A stretch of 64,000 nucleotides of DNA, taken from Leptolyngbya sp. Heron Island J (GTDB taxonomy: Bacteria; Cyanobacteriota; Cyanobacteriia; Phormidesmidales; Phormidesmidaceae). The notes under the pieces were generated by a model that searched no databases, was not told where the DNA came from, and saw only the letters and a program-made list of their open reading frames with translations. The stretch spans positions 163,091 through 227,090 of the forward strand of contig NZ_AWNH01000014.1 of the NCBI RefSeq assembly GCF_000482245.1, written 5' to 3'. This document shows, in pieces, positions 1,719 to 61,190 of this stretch; the stretch's first letter is position 1; each line of letters opens with the position of its first letter. A program made the translations under genes and the position numbers.

Positions 1719-3230
1719 ATGTCCATTTCCATCCCCCATTGGCTGATTCGTATTTATAAATCGCCATGGGCTGCCGTTCTGATTGTCGCCATTCTGGGCT
1801 TTATTGGTGCCCTCAATCACAGCATGTGGCGCGATGAGATGAATGTCTGGCTAATTGCACGGGATAGTCCATCCTGGGCAGCATTTGTGGAAAATATTCA
1901 CTACGACCGTGCCCATCCAGGTCTATGGCACCTGCTGGTGGCAGGGCTATATCACGTATTTGGTCAGCCCATCGCCATGCAGATATTTCACTGGCTGCTA
2001 GCGATGGGCTCATTATTGCTGATCTGGCAATGCAGCCCTTTTACCCAATGGCAAAAGTGGCTGTTTACCTTTGGCTATCTACCATTCTATGAGCATCTAC
2101 TGATTGCTCGTAACTATGCGATCGCTATGTTGCTCCTGTTTGCCATTTGCAGCCTGTGGCCTATGCGGCGGCAGGCTTACTGGCCACTGGCGGGGTTACT
2201 GGTGCTGTTGGCGAATAGCAATGTTTATGCATTTTTAATTGCGATCGCTCTCGCTCTAACCCTGGGACTGGAGGTATTGTGCGAGACCCAACGTCGCCGC
2301 TGGCTCGATATAGGGCTGAGCAGCTTCCTAATTGTGACAGGCTATGCCATAGCCCTTTACTTCATTATCCCCCCCATCGATGTCGCTAATCAGGCCCTTG
2401 AAGGGTATGTCACTGGCCTGAACATCCGACATCTGCTCAGAGCCGTTGGTCGCATCTTTGGGGGGTACTACGTCATCATCCCCAACGGTAAGCGATACCT
2501 GGATCTCTTAATCTGTGCAGCCATTAGTCTAGGAACTTGCTTTTTAGTTGTACTCAAGCTTGTCAAAAAGCCTTATCCCTTAGCATTTTATTTACTGAGT
2601 AATGGCATCCTCTTAGGCTTTACATACGCCAAATTTATGCCGATCTCCATTCGTCATTTTGGGAACTTTTATCTCATTCTGATTGCAGCATTGTGGCTAG
2701 CCTGTCACTATCAGCCAACCACAGCCATCACCCAACACATACTTATCCTTGAAACATGGCAGCAACAATCCCAGCGCTGGTTTAGTCGGACATTTACCAG
2801 CATTTTGATCGCCCATGTCATCGGCGGTATATTCCTGTTCACCATGGACTTCACTATTCCCTACTCAGCCAGCCGAACCACTGCTGCCTATATGCGTCAG
2901 GCCAATCTACAAGACGAATTTATTGTAGCTAGTCGCGATGCTCAGATGGCTGCCCTCAGCGGCTACCTCGATCGCCCTTTTTACTTTCCAGAACGCCAGG
3001 CCATCGGTAGCTACACACTATTCTTTAAAGGAGTTCGCCAGGAAGTTGATCAGCAAATAGTCCTTCAGCAGGTGAAGCAACTGCTAGCTGAGCACCCTAA
3101 AATTCTCCTAGTGCTCAGCAAAGAATTAGAAGAAACAACTACAGGCCTCGACATTGAGCCGATCCAGTCATTTGAGAAAGCCTGGCAAAATGAAGAGTAC
3201 TACCTCTACTGGGTTAGCGCTGCCGGGTAG
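1719..3230 (+). CDS. Multi-pass membrane protein, GT-C glycosyltransferase-like
   Basis: This is a 503-residue integral membrane protein with a first span near residues 18-36, followed by MWRDEMNVWLIARD. The acidic pair right after the first span is a signature of GT-C transferases (PMT, ArnT, GT39/GT83-like). About ten further hydrophobic segments and a soluble C-terminal tail of ~110 residues follow. It lies 24 bases after a similar gene and ends two bases before the convergent thf1 gene. The likely role is glycosylation using a polyprenyl-linked sugar, with unknown target. A general polytopic membrane protein without transferase activity remains possible. Confidence 0.6.
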   Translation: MSISIPHWLIRIYKSPWAAVLIVAILGFIGALNHSMWRDEMNVWLIARDSPSWAAFVENIHYDRAHPGLWHLLVAGLYHVFGQPIAMQIFHWLLAMGSLLLIWQCSPFTQWQKWLFTFGYLPFYEHLLIARNYAIAMLLLFAICSLWPMRRQAYWPLAGLLVLLANSNVYAFLIAIALALTLGLEVLCETQRRRWLDIGLSSFLIVTGYAIALYFIIPPIDVANQALEGYVTGLNIRHLLRAVGRIFGGYYVIIPNGKRYLDLLICAAISLGTCFLVVLKLVKKPYPLAFYLLSNGILLGFTYAKFMPISIRHFGNFYLILIAALWLACHYQPTTAITQHILILETWQQQSQRWFSRTFTSILIAHVIGGIFLFTMDFTIPYSASRTTAAYMRQANLQDEFIVASRDAQMAALSGYLDRPFYFPERQAIGSYTLFFKGVRQEVDQQIVLQQVKQLLAEHPKILLVLSKELEETTTGLDIEPIQSFEKAWQNEEYYLYWVSAAG

Positions 3231-22837: not shown

Positions 22838-24421
22838 ATGGTTTTAGATGTCGGTATCAATGTTATTGAAGCAAATGGTCGGTCAACTCCCACCATTGAG
22901 GCTGCACCTACATCTGTTGCAGCTTTCCTGGGGGTGACTGAACGGGGAGTGCCTAATCGACCTGTCCGCATTAGTAGCCCAGAACAATTTCGTAACCGTT
23001 TTGGTCGCCATGGGACCAATGGCTATTTGGCGTATGCGATCGCAGGTTTTTTCGGCAACGGCGGACGAGAAGCCCATGTCAATCGAATTGTCGCCAGCAC
23101 CACGACAGCGACCTCGTGGGTGCTCAATGACCGCCAGATCACCCCTGCACCCACGCTCCAGGTGACCGCTGGCTATCGTGGGCAGGTAGACCCAGGTATT
23201 TGGGGCAATCGCCTACGGTTGGATATCCGGGCCGAGACCGACAGCTTCCGACTGATTGTGCGCTATCAGGCCACCCCTAGTGAGTCATTTACCGTTGTCG
23301 AAGACTGGTCTGGTCTGACCATGGAGGTCAACTCGCCCAACTACGCAGTCACGCGTTTAAACAATGCATTTACCGGTTCGAACTACATTGTTCTCACCAA
23401 TCTGAATAGCAGTGCAACGGGTCTGCAACGCCAGCCAGCGGTTGTCTCCAATCTGGCTCCTGGCACCCTGGCGACTGAGACTGTCCCCAGCGCTAATGAC
23501 TATATTGGAGATTCGACGACCGGATTCCACGGGTTTGACACGGTTCAGGTACAGCTGCTGGCCATCCCTGATGCCCATACTCTGGTGGATGGGTTAGGGG
23601 CAGATGCAGGTCGAGAAACCGTCGTCCAAAGTGCCCTCGACTACTGTGCCCAGCGTGGCGATCTAATGTTTGTCGGTACGGTGCCCCACCGTCAGCCCAA
23701 TGAACTGGAAAGCAATTATCTCTCTCGTATCCAAACCTATTCCAGCCAGTTTCAAAGTAGCAAAGTCTATGGAGCCCTCTATGGTCCCTGGATCGAAGTC
23801 AATGACCCCGTTGGCAATGGCCCAGCCCCAACTCGATACAGCCCTGCCGACGGTCACATTATGGGCATTTATGCTCGCACAGAACGAGAGCGTGGTATCT
23901 GGAAAGCACCGGCTGGCCTCGCAGCACAAGTACGAGGCGGGTTGTCTGTTGCAGCAGAGTTTACCGATCGTCAGCATACCAGCCTGGTGCGTGACGGTTT
24001 AGTCAACAGCATTCGCTTTACCGCCGGAAGCGGGATTACGCTCACCGCTTCCCGCACATTGAGTACCGATACTCGCTGGTGGTTTGTGAACGTCCGATTG
24101 TTGTTTAACTTTGTCAAAACCTCTCTCAGAGATGGATTACATTTTGTTCGTCAGGAACCCCACACTGCTGACCTGCGGCGCAATGTGCAGTTAAACGTAG
24201 TGAGACCCTTTTTGCTGGGACTTTGGCGTCAGGGAGCCTTCGGTAGCGAGGATCCGGATACTGTTTTTAGCATTAAGTGTGACGCTGAAAACAATCCTCC
24301 CACAGAGGTCAACCTGGGAAATTTTCGCATAGAAGTCTACTTTTATGCTGCTCGCCCCGTAGAAACTATTCGCCTGATCGTCGGGCAACAGCCGAGCGGT
24401 GCATCCGCAAATGAACTATAA
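22838..24421 (+). CDS. Contractile sheath protein, short paralogue (Cis2-type)
   Basis: This 527-residue protein is a phage-tail-sheath/FI-like protein. The N-terminus (LDVGINVIEANGRSTPTIEA; SVAAFLGVTERGVPNRPV) forms the inter-subunit strand that links sheath rings. The C-terminal core has GIWKAPAGLAA, ASRTLSTDTRWWFVNVR, FNFVKTSLRDGLHFVRQEP and LLGLWRQGAFGS. The sheath contracts to drive the inner tube through a membrane. It is followed, 26 bases on, by a longer paralogue. It lacks the two insertion modules of that paralogue, having instead a compact middle domain around residues 105-235. Confidence 0.93.
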   Translation: MVLDVGINVIEANGRSTPTIEAAPTSVAAFLGVTERGVPNRPVRISSPEQFRNRFGRHGTNGYLAYAIAGFFGNGGREAHVNRIVASTTTATSWVLNDRQITPAPTLQVTAGYRGQVDPGIWGNRLRLDIRAETDSFRLIVRYQATPSESFTVVEDWSGLTMEVNSPNYAVTRLNNAFTGSNYIVLTNLNSSATGLQRQPAVVSNLAPGTLATETVPSANDYIGDSTTGFHGFDTVQVQLLAIPDAHTLVDGLGADAGRETVVQSALDYCAQRGDLMFVGTVPHRQPNELESNYLSRIQTYSSQFQSSKVYGALYGPWIEVNDPVGNGPAPTRYSPADGHIMGIYARTERERGIWKAPAGLAAQVRGGLSVAAEFTDRQHTSLVRDGLVNSIRFTAGSGITLTASRTLSTDTRWWFVNVRLLFNFVKTSLRDGLHFVRQEPHTADLRRNVQLNVVRPFLLGLWRQGAFGSEDPDTVFSIKCDAENNPPTEVNLGNFRIEVYFYAARPVETIRLIVGQQPSGASANEL

Positions 24422-24447: not shown

Positions 24448-26844
24448 ATGGCCTTTAACCTTGGGGTTAATGTTGTTGAAGTGGATGGTCGTGCCGCCCC
24501 TACCATTGTCGCTGCCCAAACATCAGTAGCCGGTTTTCTAATCCGCAGTCAGCGGGGTGTACCGAATGTTCCGGTTGCTCTCAAGGGGTTTACAGACTAC
24601 GCTAACTTTTTTGGCGGCTACGCCACTGGTTCTGACAATCAGCCTCTTTATGGAGCCCACACGATTCGCGGCTTTTTTGATAGTGGTGGCACTGATGCTT
24701 ACGCGGTGAGAATTGTCGGTAGCGGGCACCGACCAGCGAATGCAATTCTCAATGATCGCTTAGGCACAGCCACCCTTGATGTTCAGGCTGGCATGCGCGG
24801 TCAGCTGGATCCGGGGGGGTGGGGAGATGCCCTGTCGGTAAGTATTGTTGATAATTCGCGAGGTACAGCAGCTATCCCTGCCCAAATTAGGGGTACTACA
24901 GCGGAACCGTTTGCTCTGGCCGATGGCCAGAGTCTGCAGGTAATTGTCAACGGTGAGAGTCCACCAATTACCATCACGTTTGCAGAGACGGATTTTATCA
25001 ACATTGCCTCGGCTTCAGCCGCCGAAGTTGTGGCTGCGATTAGTCGTCAAACTACAGCCCTCCGAGTGGGAATTACCCCCGAGCTGGAGCTGATGTTAGC
25101 GAGCGCAGTGGCTGGATCGACCTCTCACCTGTCCGTGGCTGGTGATGCGGCAGCGGCCCTGGGGTTTGGCGGTGCTCCCAGTACCAGCGAGGGGGCCTTA
25201 GTGGGCACCACTACCCTGGCGACTCTACAAAATACGGCTGGTTTTTTGCCGGGGTCGGCGGTGCGTCTGGAAACACGGGGACATGTGATCGCCCCTAACA
25301 CAGCGGCGGCCAGTGGCCTGGTGGATACAGGCATAGAGGTTAGCGTTGATGGTGGGTCCGCCAACGTGATTACCTTTACAGCCAGTGACTTTTTAGATGC
25401 TGCCAACATTATGCCAACAGAGATTGTTGCGGCAATCAACCGACAGGCTCAGGGATTCACAGCGGCCCTCGATCACACACAGCAGCTAGTGTTGCTTGCC
25501 AATAGCTACGGGGCTGGTTCCAGTATTGAGATCGCACCCCCGCCCGTGTCTCCCCCCGATGCTACCGTTCTGTTGGGATTTGATACCGTTACCAGTCCAG
25601 CTGTTGCCGGGCAACGAGACTATCGGGCCTTAAATATGGTGTCTGAAGTCTATAAATTTGTTACCTGGTCCCCGGCGTTGGGTCTACCCGCCAACTTTGC
25701 CCGGATTCAATCGGTAGAGTTTGACGTGATTGTCAGCCAGAACGGTGTAGAGGTTGAACGGTTTGAAGCCCTGAGTATGCAGCCCACCCTGGACTACGCG
25801 ATTGAGGCAGTGGTGAACAATGGTATCAGCGGCTCTCGCTATATCACCGTCACCAATCAGAACAGTGGTTCTGGAGTCGGACAGACAGCACCGGCTCAGG
25901 GAGTATTTGAGTTGGGAGCAACCCCTGCCACAGCGGGCAGCGATGGTGGCGCACCAGTAGATACTGACTACACAGGTGACCCAGCCTTGCGCACAGGACT
26001 TTATGCCTTCGATATGGCCTCAATACAGCTGTTGGCCTGCCCTGAGGCCCAGTCTGCTGGAGTGGTCATTGCGAGTTTGGCCTACTGTGAACGACGTGGA
26101 GACGCGATGTTTGTCGGTACAGCACCTAGCGGCTATGACCTGGAGGGGATTAAGACCTACGCCAGTGAGCTGCGTGCTAGCAAAGTCTACGGGGCGCTTT
26201 ACGCTCCTTGGATTCAGGTGGCTAACCCAACTGACACCACGGGGGCAAATCCTCGTTTAGAGATCCCCCCCGATGGTCATGTCTTGGGGACCTATGCCCG
26301 GATTGCCAGAAGTCGTGGGGTTTGGAAAGCCCCCGCAGGGGATGAAGCCCAGCTCAGCAATGTGCTGGGAGTGGAGTTTGACATGAGTGATGTGGACCAT
26401 ACCGATCTGGTGAAGAACGGTGGGGTTAACGGGATTCGCGCGATTCCTCGTAGAGGTATTGTGCTGGATGCATCGCGCACCTTGAGTACCGACACCCGCT
26501 GGCTGTATGTGGGCACGCGACGGCTGTTTAACTTTGTTAAAACATCGCTGAAAGATGGTCTCCGCTGGGTGCTTCAAGAACCCAATAGTCAAACCCTGTG
26601 GAACCGGATTAACTATAACGTGATCACCCCATTCCTTACGGGCTTGTGGCGTCAGGGCGCGTTTGGATCCGATCCGCTGGAGCAGGTAGTGACCATAAAA
26701 ATCGATGCTGAGAACAATCCGCCGGATCAGGTCACTCAAGGCAATCTAACGGTGGAAGTGTATTTCTATCCGGTGCGTCCGGCTGAAACCATTATTTTGG
26801 TGGTTGGCCAACAGGAAAGCGGTGCGATCGCAACAGAAAACTAG
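24448..26844 (+). CDS. Contractile sheath protein, long paralogue with two insertion modules
   Basis: The 798 residues share the start (NLGVNVVEVDGRAAPTIVAA) and end (FNFVKTSLKDGLRWVLQEP; GLWRQGAFGS) of the neighbouring sheath. The middle is expanded by about 250 residues. Two related ~90-residue modules occupy residues ~150-242 and ~283-380, each with a DGxxxxV beta start, TF.ETDF/TF.ASDF, EVVAAIxRQ and a C-terminal LGF. These should form decorations on the sheath outside, away from the tube. Similar modules recur in the 1075-aa baseplate protein. In other systems the larger sheath often makes a special ring or the main sheath. Which applies here is unknown. Confidence 0.92.
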   Translation: MAFNLGVNVVEVDGRAAPTIVAAQTSVAGFLIRSQRGVPNVPVALKGFTDYANFFGGYATGSDNQPLYGAHTIRGFFDSGGTDAYAVRIVGSGHRPANAILNDRLGTATLDVQAGMRGQLDPGGWGDALSVSIVDNSRGTAAIPAQIRGTTAEPFALADGQSLQVIVNGESPPITITFAETDFINIASASAAEVVAAISRQTTALRVGITPELELMLASAVAGSTSHLSVAGDAAAALGFGGAPSTSEGALVGTTTLATLQNTAGFLPGSAVRLETRGHVIAPNTAAASGLVDTGIEVSVDGGSANVITFTASDFLDAANIMPTEIVAAINRQAQGFTAALDHTQQLVLLANSYGAGSSIEIAPPPVSPPDATVLLGFDTVTSPAVAGQRDYRALNMVSEVYKFVTWSPALGLPANFARIQSVEFDVIVSQNGVEVERFEALSMQPTLDYAIEAVVNNGISGSRYITVTNQNSGSGVGQTAPAQGVFELGATPATAGSDGGAPVDTDYTGDPALRTGLYAFDMASIQLLACPEAQSAGVVIASLAYCERRGDAMFVGTAPSGYDLEGIKTYASELRASKVYGALYAPWIQVANPTDTTGANPRLEIPPDGHVLGTYARIARSRGVWKAPAGDEAQLSNVLGVEFDMSDVDHTDLVKNGGVNGIRAIPRRGIVLDASRTLSTDTRWLYVGTRRLFNFVKTSLKDGLRWVLQEPNSQTLWNRINYNVITPFLTGLWRQGAFGSDPLEQVVTIKIDAENNPPDQVTQGNLTVEVYFYPVRPAETIILVVGQQESGAIATEN

Positions 26845-26937
26845 CCCCATCTATTCTCTGTCTTTAGAAAAGACACACTTGACTAGATGTGGGTGCAGGC
26901 AGTCACTCAATTTTTGCAACATTATTGGAGAGTAACA

Positions 26938-27405
26938 ATGGCAGAACTTACCTTTAGCGAATCCTGGCGCACCCATGGGTTTCGTTTGGAGATTGAAGGC
27001 ATTCCCTCAGTGCCCATCACCAAAGTGACTGGTCTCAATGAAGGCATGACCGAAACCATTGAACAAGCAGATGGCGGCGACACCATTGTTCGTAAAATCA
27101 CCAGTGGCATCGTTAAGTTTGATCCCCTGGTGATTGAGCGCAATATGGATGGCAGCCCCAACGATCAGATTTTTCAGGACTGGTTTAATGAAATGTTTCA
27201 GCTCAACGGAGCTAGCGGCGGCTCTTCGGTGCGCCGCAACGGAGCCGTCGTCAAAATGGAAAACGGACAAGAGGTGATGCGATTTGCTTTCTTTGAAGGC
27301 TGGGTCAAAAAATCCAGCTTTTCTGATTTAGAAGCCGCCTCCGCCAACCTGTTTAAGCAAATCATTGAAATTGAACACAACGGTTTGGAGCGCATTACCG
27401 CATAG
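26938..27405 (+). CDS. Inner tube protein (gp19/Hcp-like, Cis1-type)
   Basis: The protein is 155 residues from ATG 26938, which has GGAG about eight bases upstream; an earlier TTG/GTG reading gives an unlikely N-terminus. It matches tail-tube proteins of the T4 gp19/DUF type: FSESWRTHGFRLEIEGIPSV, ITKVTGLNEGMTETIEQADG and RFAFFEGWVKKSSFSDLEAA. Stacked hexamers form the rigid tube enclosed by the sheath. It follows the sheath genes as in most CIS loci. Only one tube gene of this class is present. Confidence 0.92.
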   Translation: MAELTFSESWRTHGFRLEIEGIPSVPITKVTGLNEGMTETIEQADGGDTIVRKITSGIVKFDPLVIERNMDGSPNDQIFQDWFNEMFQLNGASGGSSVRRNGAVVKMENGQEVMRFAFFEGWVKKSSFSDLEAASANLFKQIIEIEHNGLERITA

Positions 27406-27466: not shown

Positions 27467-28246
27467 ATGGGAAATCGACCGACAAGAGAATTTGACTTTG
27501 AGCTACCCGTGGGCTACATGGATGAGGATGGACGGGTACACCGAACAGCTACACTGCGCAAAATGAGCGGCCATGAAGAGGCCATGCTGGCGGATCGAAA
27601 ACTACGTCAGAATGCTGGCAAGCTGGTCACAGAACTGCTGACCAGCTGCACCAAAAAGCTAGATGACGTGACCAGTGTCAACCGCCAACTGATTGCCGAT
27701 CTAACCTCCGCTGACCGCAACTATTTGTTGTTAGAGCTGCGCAAAATCACCTTTGGAGAAACCATTGAAGCGAATTATCGCTGTCCCGCCTGCGGGGGCA
27801 CCAATCATATTTTAGAGGAGCTAGACGAACTCCCCGTTAATCGTGCCGACAACGGCGGTCCTCCAGAAATCATGGTGGAACTGGAAGACGGCTATGAAGA
27901 TAAAAACGGCGAAGTCTATACGACCATGAGCTTCCGATTACCTACAGGGGTCGATGAGGAGAAGACCGCCAACATTGTTAAAAGCAATGCCTCACGGGGG
28001 ACTAATGCCCTGTTAAGCCGCTGCATGGTGGGTCTGGGGGACATGCCAACCAATCGCCGTGAGGCCTTAGGAACAAAAATTTTAGGCGATTTGACCATGG
28101 GGGACCGCGCCCGAATTGAACGGGCCTTTCGTCAGGAGATGCCAGGGGTGGATCTAACGCGAGAATTGACCTGTGAACATTGTGGCAGCCCGATCAAAAC
28201 CACATTGGATATGAAAAGTTTTTTCTCTCTGCCATCGGCAGCCTAG
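27467..28246 (+). CDS. CIS assembly/baseplate protein with split zinc finger
   Basis: The protein has 259 residues. It carries two CxxC pairs, CPACG at residues 106-109 and CEHCG at 236-239, about 130 residues apart, probably joined into one zinc site. The rest is mostly helical (GHEEAMLADRKLRQNAGKLV; ADRNYLLLELRKITFGE; GDRARIERAFRQEMPGVDL). The plan is that of CIS proteins placed between tube and tape measure, compared with phage baseplate-assembly proteins (T4 gp26/gp51-like) or tail-assembly chaperones. It overlaps the next coding unit by 67 bases in the -1 frame and ends just after a slippery heptamer. Confidence 0.75.
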   Translation: MGNRPTREFDFELPVGYMDEDGRVHRTATLRKMSGHEEAMLADRKLRQNAGKLVTELLTSCTKKLDDVTSVNRQLIADLTSADRNYLLLELRKITFGETIEANYRCPACGGTNHILEELDELPVNRADNGGPPEIMVELEDGYEDKNGEVYTTMSFRLPTGVDEEKTANIVKSNASRGTNALLSRCMVGLGDMPTNRREALGTKILGDLTMGDRARIERAFRQEMPGVDLTRELTCEHCGSPIKTTLDMKSFFSLPSAA

Positions 28247-28410
28247 CCCAGCTACACCAGGAAGTATTTTACCTGGCCTATCATCTGCACTGGTCGCCTA
28301 ACGATGTGATTGAGCTGGATGTGGAAACCCGCCGGGCGTATCTGCGGTTGTTGATGGAGCAGCTGGAGCGAGAGAAAGAAGCGGTCGAAAAGGCCAAAAA
28401 AGGCAGATAA
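28180..28410 (+). CDS. DUF6760-family CIS protein, in the -1 frame (start unclear)
   Basis: The frame encodes a DUF6760 core: LHQEVFYLAYHLHW, then ETRRAYLRLLMEQLEREKEA and a basic tail. DUF6760 proteins are small, constant members of CIS clusters, next to the tape measure. No ATG or GTG exists in frame before the core. The only usual start is TTG 28180, one codon after an in-frame TGA, and no ribosome site is evident. The core is preceded by an extra stretch in the overlap with the upstream gene. It may instead be made as a -1 frameshift fusion of about 314 residues (252 from the upstream gene, 62 from here). The TTG start is nominal. Confidence 0.7.
   Translation: MWQPDQNHIGYEKFFLSAIGSLAQLHQEVFYLAYHLHWSPNDVIELDVETRRAYLRLLMEQLEREKEAVEKAKKGR
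28219..28225 (+). promoter_or_regulatory. Candidate -1 ribosomal frameshift site (T TTT TTC)
   Basis: The heptamer TTTTTTC is phased as X XXY YYZ relative to the upstream reading frame (AGT TTT TTC, codons 251-253), a classic slippery sequence. Slipping back by one base here enters the DUF6760 frame seven codons before the upstream stop. No strong downstream hairpin is obvious by eye. Assignment is inference from phase and context. Confidence 0.55.
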
Positions 28411-42130: not shown

Positions 42131-44950
42131 ATGAAAAATCGATTACTAATGGCGTTCTTAGCCATTTTCTCTACCCTCTTTTTAATGGCAACCCCGGCCT
42201 ATGCCCAAACACCAATTGATTGGGACCCCGGTACTTCCACACCAACATTTGATAACGGCTCCATGACCTGGGACCCGTTTGATAGCGCCCAAGCTCAGCC
42301 AGCCAAAGGCGGAATTATCGTTACCTATCCCCCCAATGGCTTTGCTTATCCCATCGATCTATCAACCGCCAATATATTTCTTCAGCCCAGTGCCACCGCT
42401 AGCGAAGTTCCGTGTACGCTCGGCGGTGCGCCCATGAATGCCGCACCAGGTAGCTGCTATTTCAGTCTCTCGGATGGCGATCGCAGAATTCGCATTGAAT
42501 ACCTGGGCAATCTCTCCGACAACTTCACATTTCGCGGTACCGATCTTCTCTCCGCCAATCCTGTTGCCTTTAGCATCAATGATTTTAATAGTGCCGATAC
42601 TGGAGTCGCTCTAATACCTGATCCAGCTCGAGATCCGGCCCGTTTACTCATGGTGTTAGACAAGTCTGGCAGTATGAGATGGTCATCACATCCAACTGAC
42701 ATGGGATGTGGCACGAATACTCCCGTCAACGACGACCCGATGATCGATCCCTGTGGACCATCTCGCTGGAAAGTCCTCAACGACTCAGTAGAAGCTGCTC
42801 TCAGCGTAGCGGAGCCCTATGCCTTAGCAGGTCACGATCGGTTTGCTGCAGCCCTGTTCAATGGCAACGTCAGCTATACCTTCCCATCAATGGATGCAGC
42901 CAACAAAGATACGTTACTGGGGCCAAACAATATTGCCACCTTCTTAAGTGGAACTGAATTAGGCGGCCAAACCCCCGGTGGCAGTACCTCTATCGGTGAT
43001 GGCATGGAATACTTTGATGACCTGGTCACCGGCCCAGATGCAGGTGACTACAACCAGTCCATTCTTGTATTTAGTGATGGAGAAGAAAATACAGCTCAAT
43101 TTATCGTGATGTTAGAAGATGCATCCCCACCCACAATTGGCATCAGTAATACAGACGATCCGGGTGGAGCTGCAGGTGCTAGCGAATTTGCACCTGGTGT
43201 GCGCATTTGTCCTTTTGCCATGCGCAGCAGCGATCCAAATAATGTTGATCCAACCGACCAATTAGCCTTTATTGCGGAGCATCGCTGCGACGATCTCGCT
43301 TACAGCGTCACCGATCTATTGGGTCAAGATAATCCAGCCCTGACTCAGTTCTTTTTGCAGGTTCTCAACAACACCCTGGTTGGCGATAAACTTGAAATTG
43401 TCAAGAAAGCGAACGGCCAGTTATTCAGGGATGAGGGGACGTCCGAGCTGTTTATAACTGGTCAAGATGTCCAGGCGTTTACTATTCTTATCCAATGGAA
43501 TGAGACATTCAACGGCCTTTCAGAATTAGTACTGGAAAAAGATGGGGTAACATTTCCCCTACTAAATACAGATGCTGCCATCGTCCAGACTGGGGAAAAT
43601 CACATATCAGCCACACTACGTCAACCCTTTTGTAACGATGAGGGCAAATGTGTAGATAGTGCAGGCAAATGGAAAATCTATTTCCGACCTTTCTTTCAAA
43701 GTGCAGAGAGTTTTACTTATGATCTGTTTGTCAATGCTGATAACGCCTCTATCGCCAGTGAATTTAAAGCGACACAGCCGATCCCAGGTATTCTCCAGCC
43801 CATCGAATTAACCGCCACTTTGAGCGAAGCCAGTAAACCGTTACAAGGGGGCAAGGTCAAAGCTGTCATTAGAAGGGCTGAAGCAGGCTTAGGTAACGTG
43901 CTTTCCCTAGCAGACATCAGACCTGCTGACCAGCAAAGTGATCTTGAACCGCTTAGTCTTACAGCGCTCAAGGTAGAAGCTATGCTAAAAGATCCCAATT
44001 ATCGCCCAGAAATTCTTGCCGCCCTCCAGGCCAACAAAGTTGAAGAGGTTGTTCTGACTGAATCTTCACCCGGAGTTTACACTGGACTTTACAAAGATAC
44101 ATTTGTCGATGGCGTTTATTTCATAGACTTTTTGGTAGATGCCAAGGGTGCCATCAACGGGCCCTTTACCCGTACATTTGGACAAACCTACTATGTACCA
44201 ATGGCTCCAGATGCAGAGATCACAGCAGATAGTTTGAGAGTAGCTTCACTTTCTAATTGCTCCAGAAAGTATGCTGGCGGATGTTTTTCAGTCTCCATCA
44301 GCCCGATGAACAAAAACAAGGATTTGCTTGGGCCAAGCAAAGAAAAGCTGTTCAGCTTACCAAACTTTAGGGGCGACATCTTAACCCCATTTGCAGATCG
44401 AAAACTTAATGGTGTTTACACCACTGAGGTGGGATTTCCAGAGGGCATATCTGGGCTTGAGCTAATTACTATTGGTGGCGTCAAAATTCCCGTTGATGTG
44501 CCTGCCAAACAATCCAACAAGTATGAGTATTCAGCTCAACTGATGTGCGGTCGAAAAGAGGGAACCAACGGTTATTACGACACTAACATCACTATCCACA
44601 ATCCCAACAGGTTTAGAAGTTCGCTGTCCATAGATCTTGTGCTGGCGTCTTCCTTTAGTACCAAAAATCGTAGCAAAACCATTTCCATTGGCGATGCCCG
44701 ATTGGGCCGCAATGAGGCCTTAACGATTGATTGTGATTTTCTTAAGAAGAAAGTCTTTAACGGCAAACTTCCCAACAATTTTCTAAATGGTGTGGTCGTT
44801 ATCGACAGTCCATCCAGGCTTCAGGTAAGTACGACCTACACGACTCTGCCTCGTTTCCGCTGGTTAGGAACCAACGGCATCTACATGAGAGAGGTACCTG
44901 AACGCCCGTTTAGATTTGATGATGCGCCGCCCACATTTAATCGCGATTAA
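42131..44950 (+). CDS. Secreted von Willebrand factor A domain protein ending the CIS operon
   Basis: This 939-residue protein has a Sec signal peptide (cleavage near AYA-Q, residue 25). Domain order is an N-terminal beta region (VTYPPNGFAYPIDL), then a vWA domain from about residue 170: the MIDAS motif DKSGS at 177-181, later GGSTSIGDGMEY and VFSDGEENT. Beta-sandwich domains of the CLCA-like type follow, to the end. vWA domains bind ligands through a metal ion. It starts 36 bases after the CIS gene and ends at a strong terminator, so it is probably co-transcribed. No cell-anchoring motif is visible. Its place in CIS biology is unknown; adhesion or a regulator of target contact are possibilities. 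Confidence 0.75.
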   Translation: MKNRLLMAFLAIFSTLFLMATPAYAQTPIDWDPGTSTPTFDNGSMTWDPFDSAQAQPAKGGIIVTYPPNGFAYPIDLSTANIFLQPSATASEVPCTLGGAPMNAAPGSCYFSLSDGDRRIRIEYLGNLSDNFTFRGTDLLSANPVAFSINDFNSADTGVALIPDPARDPARLLMVLDKSGSMRWSSHPTDMGCGTNTPVNDDPMIDPCGPSRWKVLNDSVEAALSVAEPYALAGHDRFAAALFNGNVSYTFPSMDAANKDTLLGPNNIATFLSGTELGGQTPGGSTSIGDGMEYFDDLVTGPDAGDYNQSILVFSDGEENTAQFIVMLEDASPPTIGISNTDDPGGAAGASEFAPGVRICPFAMRSSDPNNVDPTDQLAFIAEHRCDDLAYSVTDLLGQDNPALTQFFLQVLNNTLVGDKLEIVKKANGQLFRDEGTSELFITGQDVQAFTILIQWNETFNGLSELVLEKDGVTFPLLNTDAAIVQTGENHISATLRQPFCNDEGKCVDSAGKWKIYFRPFFQSAESFTYDLFVNADNASIASEFKATQPIPGILQPIELTATLSEASKPLQGGKVKAVIRRAEAGLGNVLSLADIRPADQQSDLEPLSLTALKVEAMLKDPNYRPEILAALQANKVEEVVLTESSPGVYTGLYKDTFVDGVYFIDFLVDAKGAINGPFTRTFGQTYYVPMAPDAEITADSLRVASLSNCSRKYAGGCFSVSISPMNKNKDLLGPSKEKLFSLPNFRGDILTPFADRKLNGVYTTEVGFPEGISGLELITIGGVKIPVDVPAKQSNKYEYSAQLMCGRKEGTNGYYDTNITIHNPNRFRSSLSIDLVLASSFSTKNRSKTISIGDARLGRNEALTIDCDFLKKKVFNGKLPNNFLNGVVVIDSPSRLQVSTTYTTLPRFRWLGTNGIYMREVPERPFRFDDAPPTFNRD

Positions 44951-60726: not shown

Positions 60727-61059
60727 CTAGTCAAAAAAACGATCAAGGGCAGCTTTTAACTCGGTCAGCTCGGCTTCAATATTGCCTTCGGTTACAGCTC
60801 GACTAATACACTCGCTCAGATGCTCATCTAATATCAATCGAGCGACACGATCCAGGGCTCCTCGAACAGCAGCAACCTGTACAAGGACATCTGGACAAGG
60901 CCTGCCTTCATGCACCATGGTCTTGATACCACGGACATGGCCCTCGATGCGGGATAAGCGATTGACAATCCGTTTTAAGGATTCTTCACTGTGGGTGTGG
61001 CCATGGCCATTCGCATCATGGGAATGGGAATGGGAAATGGCGTCTGAAGAGATGCTCAA
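60727..61059 (-). CDS. CsoR/RcnR-family metal sensor, InrS-like (nickel)
   Basis: The protein is 110 residues from TTG 61059. The ATG at 61122 would add a hydrophobic, unlike-the-family N-terminus. With the TTG start the metal ligands fall at C55, H80 and C84 (EGRPCPDVL; LDEHLSECI), two off the known InrS ligands C53, H78 and C82, which supports it. A His-rich start (SHSHSHDANGHGHTHS) is also like InrS. The protein binds nickel and then leaves promoter DNA of a nickel exporter. No such exporter is adjacent in this window. RcnR or CsoR function is an alternative. Confidence 0.82.
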   Translation of the reverse strand: MSISSDAISHSHSHDANGHGHTHSEESLKRIVNRLSRIEGHVRGIKTMVHEGRPCPDVLVQVAAVRGALDRVARLILDEHLSECISRAVTEGNIEAELTELKAALDRFFD

Positions 61060-61190
61060 GGCTATGATCAGTAGAGGTTGAATGAAGTGTAAAAAAAATA
61101 ACGAACACCTCGACTGAGGCATTCGTTACATATTGTTACGTTTCTACGTTTTTTTGTCACGTCAAACAGGTTTTATGAATCAGGTCCGTT

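Follow-up and report, generated by a model that had tools for sequence, protein, structure and literature searches.

The stretch of DNA considered here, referred to below as the window, comprises 64,000 nt of Leptolyngbya sp. Heron Island J (NZ_AWNH01000014.1). It carries on its plus strand a gene for a putative gp26-like tail assembly chaperone (TAC), which we call gene A, and, overlapping the 3' end of this gene, an open frame that encodes a DUF6760 domain. A preliminary description of this DNA had proposed that DUF6760 is made by -1 ribosomal frameshifting from gene A. The best explanation of the data presented below, and one that we regard as very probable from comparison of the loci, is indeed that programmed -1 frameshifting makes a TAC-N/TAC-NC pair in a contractile injection system (CIS).

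The overlap of gene A and DUF6760 and its conservation

Direct reading of the sequence bore out the geometry of that proposal. The DUF6760 frame lies in -1 relative to gene A, and the heptamer T TTT TTC at 28219-28225 stands in the correct phase before the gene A stop, with codon boundaries T|TTT|TTC. A TGA (28174-28176) precedes the -1 frame, which runs from 28177 to a TAA (28408-28410). Before the conserved core this frame holds no ATG or GTG, and its sole possible start is the TTG at 28180, which is the second codon after the stop and lies in unconserved sequence; by eye, no Shine-Dalgarno (SD)-like sequence was found at usable spacing before it, just as had been described. A simultaneous slip at the heptamer is predicted to join 253 zero-frame residues to 61 residues of the -1 frame, giving a TAC-NC of 314 aa next to the 259-aa zero-frame product, in agreement with the sizes of 259 and ~314 aa put forward earlier.

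The site in the window is not compelling by itself, because 14 in-phase TTTTTT heptamers occur there across 52 open reading frames (ORFs; at least 120 aa, 18,463 codons); its strength lies in its conservation across all 31 representatives described below. Two of the 14 are within 45 nt of a stop, namely that of gene A and one in a minus-strand ORF at 60727-61122. The latter ORF ends in ...TTT TTT GAC TAG, with an in-phase T TTT TTT that starts 10 nt before the stop, and its -1 frame closes after two codons, which marks it as a chance slippery site.

We distinguished gene A relatives of a long type, which are followed by DUF6760, from those of a short type, which match the first half of gene A. 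When genome contigs were scanned with gene A, 12 loci were obtained, and in all 12 the partner lay in -1 and the heptamer was present. They come from actinobacteria, an acidobacterium, an acidimicrobiium, an anaerolinean, Nitrospirillum, Corallococcus, a Symbiobacteriaceae bin and a filamentous cyanobacterium, whose locus is L002. Searches of 296 genomes from the Phytomonospora class, 195 from the Corallococcus phylum, 301 from the anaerolinean phylum and 247 from the acidobacterium phylum gave matches in 13, 62, 38 and 4 genomes, respectively, and from these we examined all 15 loci, the best 30 of 83, the best 30 of 39 and all 4 loci. The phylum names used here follow the titles of the genome records. 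IMG/VR added 12 loci, ten of them untruncated. Within the same genus or family the gene was found in few genomes (6/143 in one search and 21/386 in another, own genome included in both), and in the 386-genome search all matches but the window covered just the first half of gene A, i.e. were of the short type. With 9 duplicate loci and 8 loci with identical junctions left out, there were 31 long pairs of gene A and DUF6760, of which 24 overlapped in -1 and 7 were fused in frame. The 24 unfused pairs, the ten IMG/VR loci and one further long-type locus at a contig end (L020, T TTT TTT, -1) made up 35 unfused loci, from which 31 representatives with less than 90% amino acid identity were taken, window included.

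Aligning relatives had been suggested as a check in the preliminary description, and both the -1 phase and the heptamer turned out to be conserved. The partner lay in -1 in 24/24 unfused long pairs, in L020 as far as the contig reaches, and in 10/10 untruncated IMG/VR loci (45-70% identity). In 31/31 representatives an in-phase T TTT TTN begins at a distance of 10-25 nt from the gene A stop, while no other in-phase TTTTTT occurred in the 7128 codons of the same 31 genes, in which TTT accounts for 19 of 133 Phe codons and the GC content at third positions is 0.87. Under a codon-usage null the summed log10 P for this conservation was -70, a figure that overstates the case because the loci are treated as independent and phylogeny is ignored. 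The codon before TTTTTT varies (AGT, CAT, AAT, GGT, GCT, TCT or CGT) but always ends in T, and at the seventh position T occurs in 14 of the representatives, A in 8, G in 6 and C in 3. Parsimony on a FastTree tree gave at least 8 changes for the seventh base, at least 12 for the first two bases of the preceding codon, and 0 for TTTTTT. Varying flanks around a fixed TTTTTT fit selection on the nucleotide heptamer and not on the amino acids.

From the heptamer to the conserved core, 21 of the 31 representatives, window included, have no ATG, GTG or TTG, and one has a TTG alone. With the heptamer in every representative and no start in most, the proposal of a -1 frameshift is supported. Both frames are conserved as protein. 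Past the two Phe residues come eight variable positions and then strong conservation with an invariant Trp. Upstream of the heptamer, conservation of the -1 frame is mostly poor (3/20 positions above 0.7), and a -1-frame stop occurs within 20 codons upstream of the slip site in 9/31; the three conserved positions may mirror the conservation of gene A itself.

Short-type relatives, fusions and other arrangements

Most cyanobacterial relatives from the 386-genome search match just the first half of gene A, with open frames of ~120-150 aa. The 61 pairs scored as short comprised 58 in -1, two in +1 (L031 and L041) and L093, which is discussed with the fusions. After 10 near-identical loci had been dropped and the two +1 loci set aside, 48 distinct -1 loci were left, and all 48 carry an in-phase G GGG GNN or G GGA AAG: 46 have G GGG GNN, one (L069) has G GGG GAA further upstream, and one (L007) has G GGA AAG, which we take to be the lambda heptamer. 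This last locus belongs to the same genome as the window (contig C8:121916-122047) and is its second DUF6760 locus, of the short type; two slip sequences thus occur in one genome. Up to 8 nt past the stop, 30 of the 48 loci have no ATG, GTG or TTG, and 5 of these 30 have one further on. Taken together with the starts found in the remainder (see below), the short class supports the same mechanism, less cleanly than the long class. At L031/L043 and L041, all cyanobacterial, tandem gene A copies or displaced partners were seen, with DUF6760 in +1 to the nearer gene A; these loci keep the GGGGGA motif.

Gene A and DUF6760 form a single ORF in 7 of the 31 long pairs, four from the Corallococcus-phylum search and three from the anaerolinean-phylum search. 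L093 is an eighth fusion, scored as short since its best domain hit was cut, and L006, with a match to gene A and none to DUF6760, looks like another. The fusion at L101 matches both PF12322 and PF20546 above cut-off; it keeps the residues FFF, spelled ttc ttc ttc, and L102 has ttc ttt. Fusion proteins are therefore encoded naturally in some relatives, and such in-frame fusions lack the T run.

Among the other loci that match gene A and not DUF6760, reading revealed no DUF6760-like frame at L124 and L126-L129, L095 was cut off, and the partner-like frame of L057 and L131 lies in +1. On plasmid pn3 of Nostoc sp. UHCC 0926 (L151), the public DUF6760 annotation (2851-3021) begins on an ATA that overlaps the upstream stop, which suggests that no ordinary start was available to the annotation.

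The injection-system cluster and its phage counterparts

Gene A matches PF12322 (T4_baseplate; E 5.9e-18, 65.8 bits against a cut-off of 24.5) and PHROG 150 (E 4.2e-18). Its best match in a viral library was an unnamed protein of a Bacillus phage (E 1.6e-22); the third and fifth matches are named as T4-like baseplate hub assembly proteins (E 2.0e-18 and 3.8e-17). The AlphaFold2 (AF2) model of gene A has a predicted local distance difference test (pLDDT) score of 90.3, and the best Protein Data Bank (PDB) match of its N-terminal domain was 2ob9, the HK97 tail assembly chaperone (Z 6.2, 86 of 107 residues, root-mean-square deviation 3.2; next row Z 2.6), although according to the tool's own warning a PDB Z below 8, as here, may reflect just a common arrangement. 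Foldseek alone gave no significant match for this model (E 0.56, probability 0.38). The model thus lends moderate support to a TAC fold for gene A. What had been called a zinc-finger gene is better described as T4 gp26/gp51-type than as a generic zinc-finger gene. In the AF2 model of the 76-residue -1 frame, residues 1-17 (to two past the slip) have a pLDDT below 50 and the rest forms mostly confident helices; a PDB search with this DUF6760 model returned nothing significant.

The surrounding genes, judged by their domain matches, have the parts of a contractile injection system (Table 1). In addition to the sheath and tube genes, the cluster includes matches to a CIS tube protein, a gpD-type hub, a spike OB domain, gp25, baseplate J and Tail_P2_I. 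At its end lies a gene for a 939-aa protein (42131-44950), possibly an accessory part, whose VWA match is weak (below cut-off) and whose Pfam matches include no CIS family. Gene A and the DUF6760 frame sit between the tube gene and the tape-measure-like gene, the position of a gpG/gpGT-type locus; together with the PF12322 match and the HK97 TAC-like model, this placement upholds the analogy to gpG/gpGT drawn in the preliminary description.

Table 1. Features of the gene A locus and neighbouring genes, in window coordinates.
Feature	Position	Strand	Remarks
Tail sheath gene	22838..24421	+	PF04984 E 4.6e-5, 23.8 bits, below curated cut-off 31.4
Second tail sheath gene	24448..26844	+	PF17482 Phage_sheath_1C E 4.8e-9, above cut-off
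Tail tube gene, directly 5' of gene A	26887..27405	+	PF06841 Phage_T4_gp19 E 3.5e-16
Gene A, putative gp26-like tail assembly chaperone (TAC-N), zero-frame product	27467..28246	+	ATG...TAG, 259 aa
-1 open stretch before the shift site, thought to be untranslated	28177..28224	+	contains TTG 28180
Slippery heptamer T TTT TTC, putative site of the -1 shift	28219..28225	+	in X XXY YYZ phase, read directly
Putative -1 extension (DUF6760)	28225..28410	+	61 codons plus TAA
Candidate stimulator hairpin CTGCC-ATC-GGCAG	28229..28241	+	3 nt past heptamer; possible
Zero-frame stop TAG of gene A	28244..28246	+	six sense codons past heptamer
Likely tape-measure gene, directly 3', 753 aa	28468..30729	+	position, length; PHROG 4372 weak, E 0.0033

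As predicted for the window, lambda gpG/gpGT and HK97 gp13 comprise a short and a -1 extended product from a locus beside the tape-measure gene, and in lambda and other TAC loci a slippery heptamer likewise stands at the 3' end of the first frame. The locus in the window differs from those of lambda and HK97 in that it belongs to a bacterial contractile injection system, that gene A is of the two-zinc-ribbon gp26 type, and that the extension is DUF6760. The role and ratio of gpG and gpGT, and the conservation of G-T frameshifting in long-tailed phages except T4, are described in PMC5009743, and for HK97-like TAC genes PMC3711429 reports a measured frameshifting of 6-7%.

In T4 itself, gp26 and gp51 are named as hub assembly chaperones in PMC3004832. 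Each matches full-length PF12322, the family of gene A (E 9e-64 and 4e-52), and gp51 is ~48 residues longer at the C-terminus, a layout that would be expected of a TAC-N and a TAC-NC. Genes 26 and 51 of T4 are separate and on opposite strands, whereas the window has one locus with a -1 overlap; membership in PF12322 does not call for two genes. A comparison of DUF6760 with the gp51-type PHROG 634 gave E 0.085, a hint at most, and our own DUF6760 profile found no match to T4 gp51.

For the TAC locus of the myophages Vandenendeviridae and Andersonviridae, PMC12846349 describes a conserved GTTTTT and a -1 frame annotated as a separate hypothetical gene; it also credits Vladimirov et al. (2022) with the observation that TAC-N genes of T4-like phages contain poly-T slip sites. 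The logic of a poly-T site with a -1 partner is the same as in the window, but concerns phages only, and the phage side is thus at least partly known. We also observed the exact heptamer of the window, in phase and with a -1 partner frame, in gp26 of cyanophage P-RSM4. This viral gp26 resembles gene A only distantly (26.7%, covering 29% of the query, E 3, with P0001), and past its stop the partner frame contains an ATG. Among its IMG/VR relatives (best 80 of 90, reduced to 79 by truncation of L163), all 79 carry an in-phase T TTT TTC 10 nt before the stop. In the 28 distinct junctions of this type, the -1 frame continues for another 59-65 codons beyond the stop, and in 20 of them no ATG, GTG or TTG occurs up to 40 nt beyond it. 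Two further phage variants were seen. At L145, T TTT TTC stands 49 nt before the stop, with a -1 partner; at L150 and six relatives the distance is 58-70 nt, and the partner frame has an ATG at +2. Nine other phage loci (L146-L149 and L153-L157) have a small gp51-like frame in +1 after the gp26-like gene; at L146-L148, L153 and L155 this frame holds no ATG or GTG up to 45 nt past the stop, and at the other four it does. The junctions CTT TGG (L155) and CTC TGA (L146 and L148) resemble a release-factor-2 +1 site, and +1 frameshifting is possible at these nine loci.

Among the papers listed (in two of the searches the top 20 of 119 and 5 of 261), from a collection with few subscription journals, none describes frameshifting in contractile injection systems in its title or abstract opening, and the word 'frameshift' is absent from PMC8894136 and PMC12998442. 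The mechanism is known in kind. Judged by these searches, the novelty appears to lie in its occurrence in a bacterial machine, in its breadth and in the meaning it gives to DUF6760.

Alternative explanations and implications

Several observations weigh against frameshifting at this locus or limit its reach. The -1 frame of the window scores 22.1 bits against PF20546 (E 1.6e-4, model positions 9-58), which is under the curated cut-off of 27; its membership in DUF6760 follows from the scores of orthologous loci (27.3-31.6 for L015-L019, 25.5 for L002 and 21.3 for L012) rather than from its own. An hhalign comparison of the fused relatives with T4 gp51 aligned the zinc ribbon only and gave no significant C-terminal match. 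Folding of 30-80 nt past the heptamer in the 31 representatives revealed no common stimulatory RNA structure, a feature that is frequent at such sites without being obligatory. Mean z was -0.1 for the 45 nt past the heptamer (-0.29 in 124 control windows), -1.04 for 60 nt, and -1.36 for 50 nt starting 5 nt past the heptamer; in each of the latter two sets 8/31 were below -2, for which the available comparison is 5.6% of the 45-nt control windows. Single loci may have a stimulatory structure. The hairpin in the window does fold, but with a z of 0.1, like shuffled sequence, it is not significant, and it was not seen as a common element in relatives. No SD-like stimulator upstream of the heptamer was apparent by eye in the sequences of the representatives.

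To these are added the loci in which a start codon is at hand. In 9/31 long-type representatives an ATG or GTG lies between heptamer and core. Eight of these starts overlap the stop, and in a simple test none of the 8 was preceded by an SD-like sequence. Coupled re-initiation could occur alongside frameshifting in the 9 loci. In 18/48 short-type loci a G-rich SD-like run precedes an ATG or GTG located at the stop or adjacent to it, and this G run could equally be a Shine-Dalgarno sequence. Finally, 14 Myxococcota loci (L082-L089, L091, L092, L094 and L097-L099) combine a long gene A relative with a small -1 partner that our DUF6760 profile does not recognise and that has its own conserved sequence (...WREGLF.LCW.QHGGSGL...). 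A GTG overlaps the stop in 14/14 of them, and T TTT TTN is missing in 12/14, where Phe-Phe is spelled ttc ttc; in the other two, L089 and L097, a T TTT TTC lies 64 nt ahead of the stop. The 14 loci have the appearance of ordinary coupled genes, with perhaps another chaperone tail made as a separate gene. Frameshifting is consequently not universal among gene A relatives, although under the frameshift explanation loci with a start would be expected to lack the heptamer. Loci with a clear start and no slippery site had been named as the finding that would refute frameshifting; they were absent from the 31 DUF6760 representatives and were found in those 12 Myxococcota loci, with their other partner.

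The start codons just described are also an argument for the alternative that DUF6760 is a separate protein, translated by termination-reinitiation at the overlapping stop or from TTG 28180. Overlaps of the NTGA type in -1 are common, and in the Nostoc relative a free DUF6760 gene is annotated. That gene would, however, begin with ATA, and neither the window nor 20 other representatives offer any ATG, GTG or TTG after the heptamer, while the TTG of the window has no SD sequence by eye and lies in unconserved sequence. Moreover, the heptamer is kept also in the 9 loci that do have a start, and seven relatives are in-frame fusions. We therefore consider separate translation of DUF6760 very unlikely.

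The same fusion protein could arise by normal translation if RNA polymerase slipped on the T run, leaving an extra or missing T in some mRNAs. Runs of nine Ts (5/31) and eight Ts (2/31) would suit this mechanism, but the run is just six Ts in 17/31 representatives, window included, and seven in 7, and six or seven Ts are short for transcriptional slippage as generally described. Furthermore, G GGG GAA and G GGA AAG of the short class are not long runs, and the seventh base of the heptamer is free (A, G or C), as in a tandem-slip heptamer. Polymerase slippage is in our view slightly less likely still than separate translation. That the overlap is a sequencing error or a decayed former in-frame fusion is negligibly probable: such fusions do occur in relatives, but the same frame relation and heptamer recur in all 31 representatives, in many genomes and contigs, with both frames under conservation as protein.

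Under programmed frameshifting, gene A and the DUF6760 frame would be one coding unit. The majority of ribosomes would stop at the TAG at 28244 and release the 259-aa TAC-N, and a minority would slip one base back while the P and A sites are occupied by the two Phe codons of the heptamer. The slipped ribosomes would read the -1 frame to the TAA at 28408 and produce the 314-aa TAC-NC, ending in the helical DUF6760 domain. By analogy to lambda gpG/gpGT and T4 gp26/gp51, the tape-measure protein would be covered by the short form in high copy number together with a few molecules of the long form, and tube subunits would be brought in by the DUF6760 tail as the injection system assembles. We infer the occurrence of the slip, its efficiency, the product ratio and the role in assembly.

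With moderate confidence, held at this level because of the GTG-type Myxococcota loci, we extend this to the view that frameshifting is a general and ancient route to the chaperone pair in DUF6760-type CIS. DUF6760 would then be a frameshift-only tail of a gp26-like protein, in which, depending on lineage, the slip sequence has been swapped (T TTT TTN, G GGG GRN or G GGA AAG) or the tail has been fused in frame or given a separate start, and some phages may use +1.

If the frameshift explanation is true, a programmed frameshift would operate in a machine that bacteria keep for themselves, and not in a virus. DUF6760 would gain a likely role, and the odd annotated start in one relative would be explained. 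The in-frame fusions and heptamer changes would provide a natural series for the evolution of recoding. In addition, a likely assembly chaperone would be named for these injection systems, and one recodable heptamer would bear on the control of their assembly.

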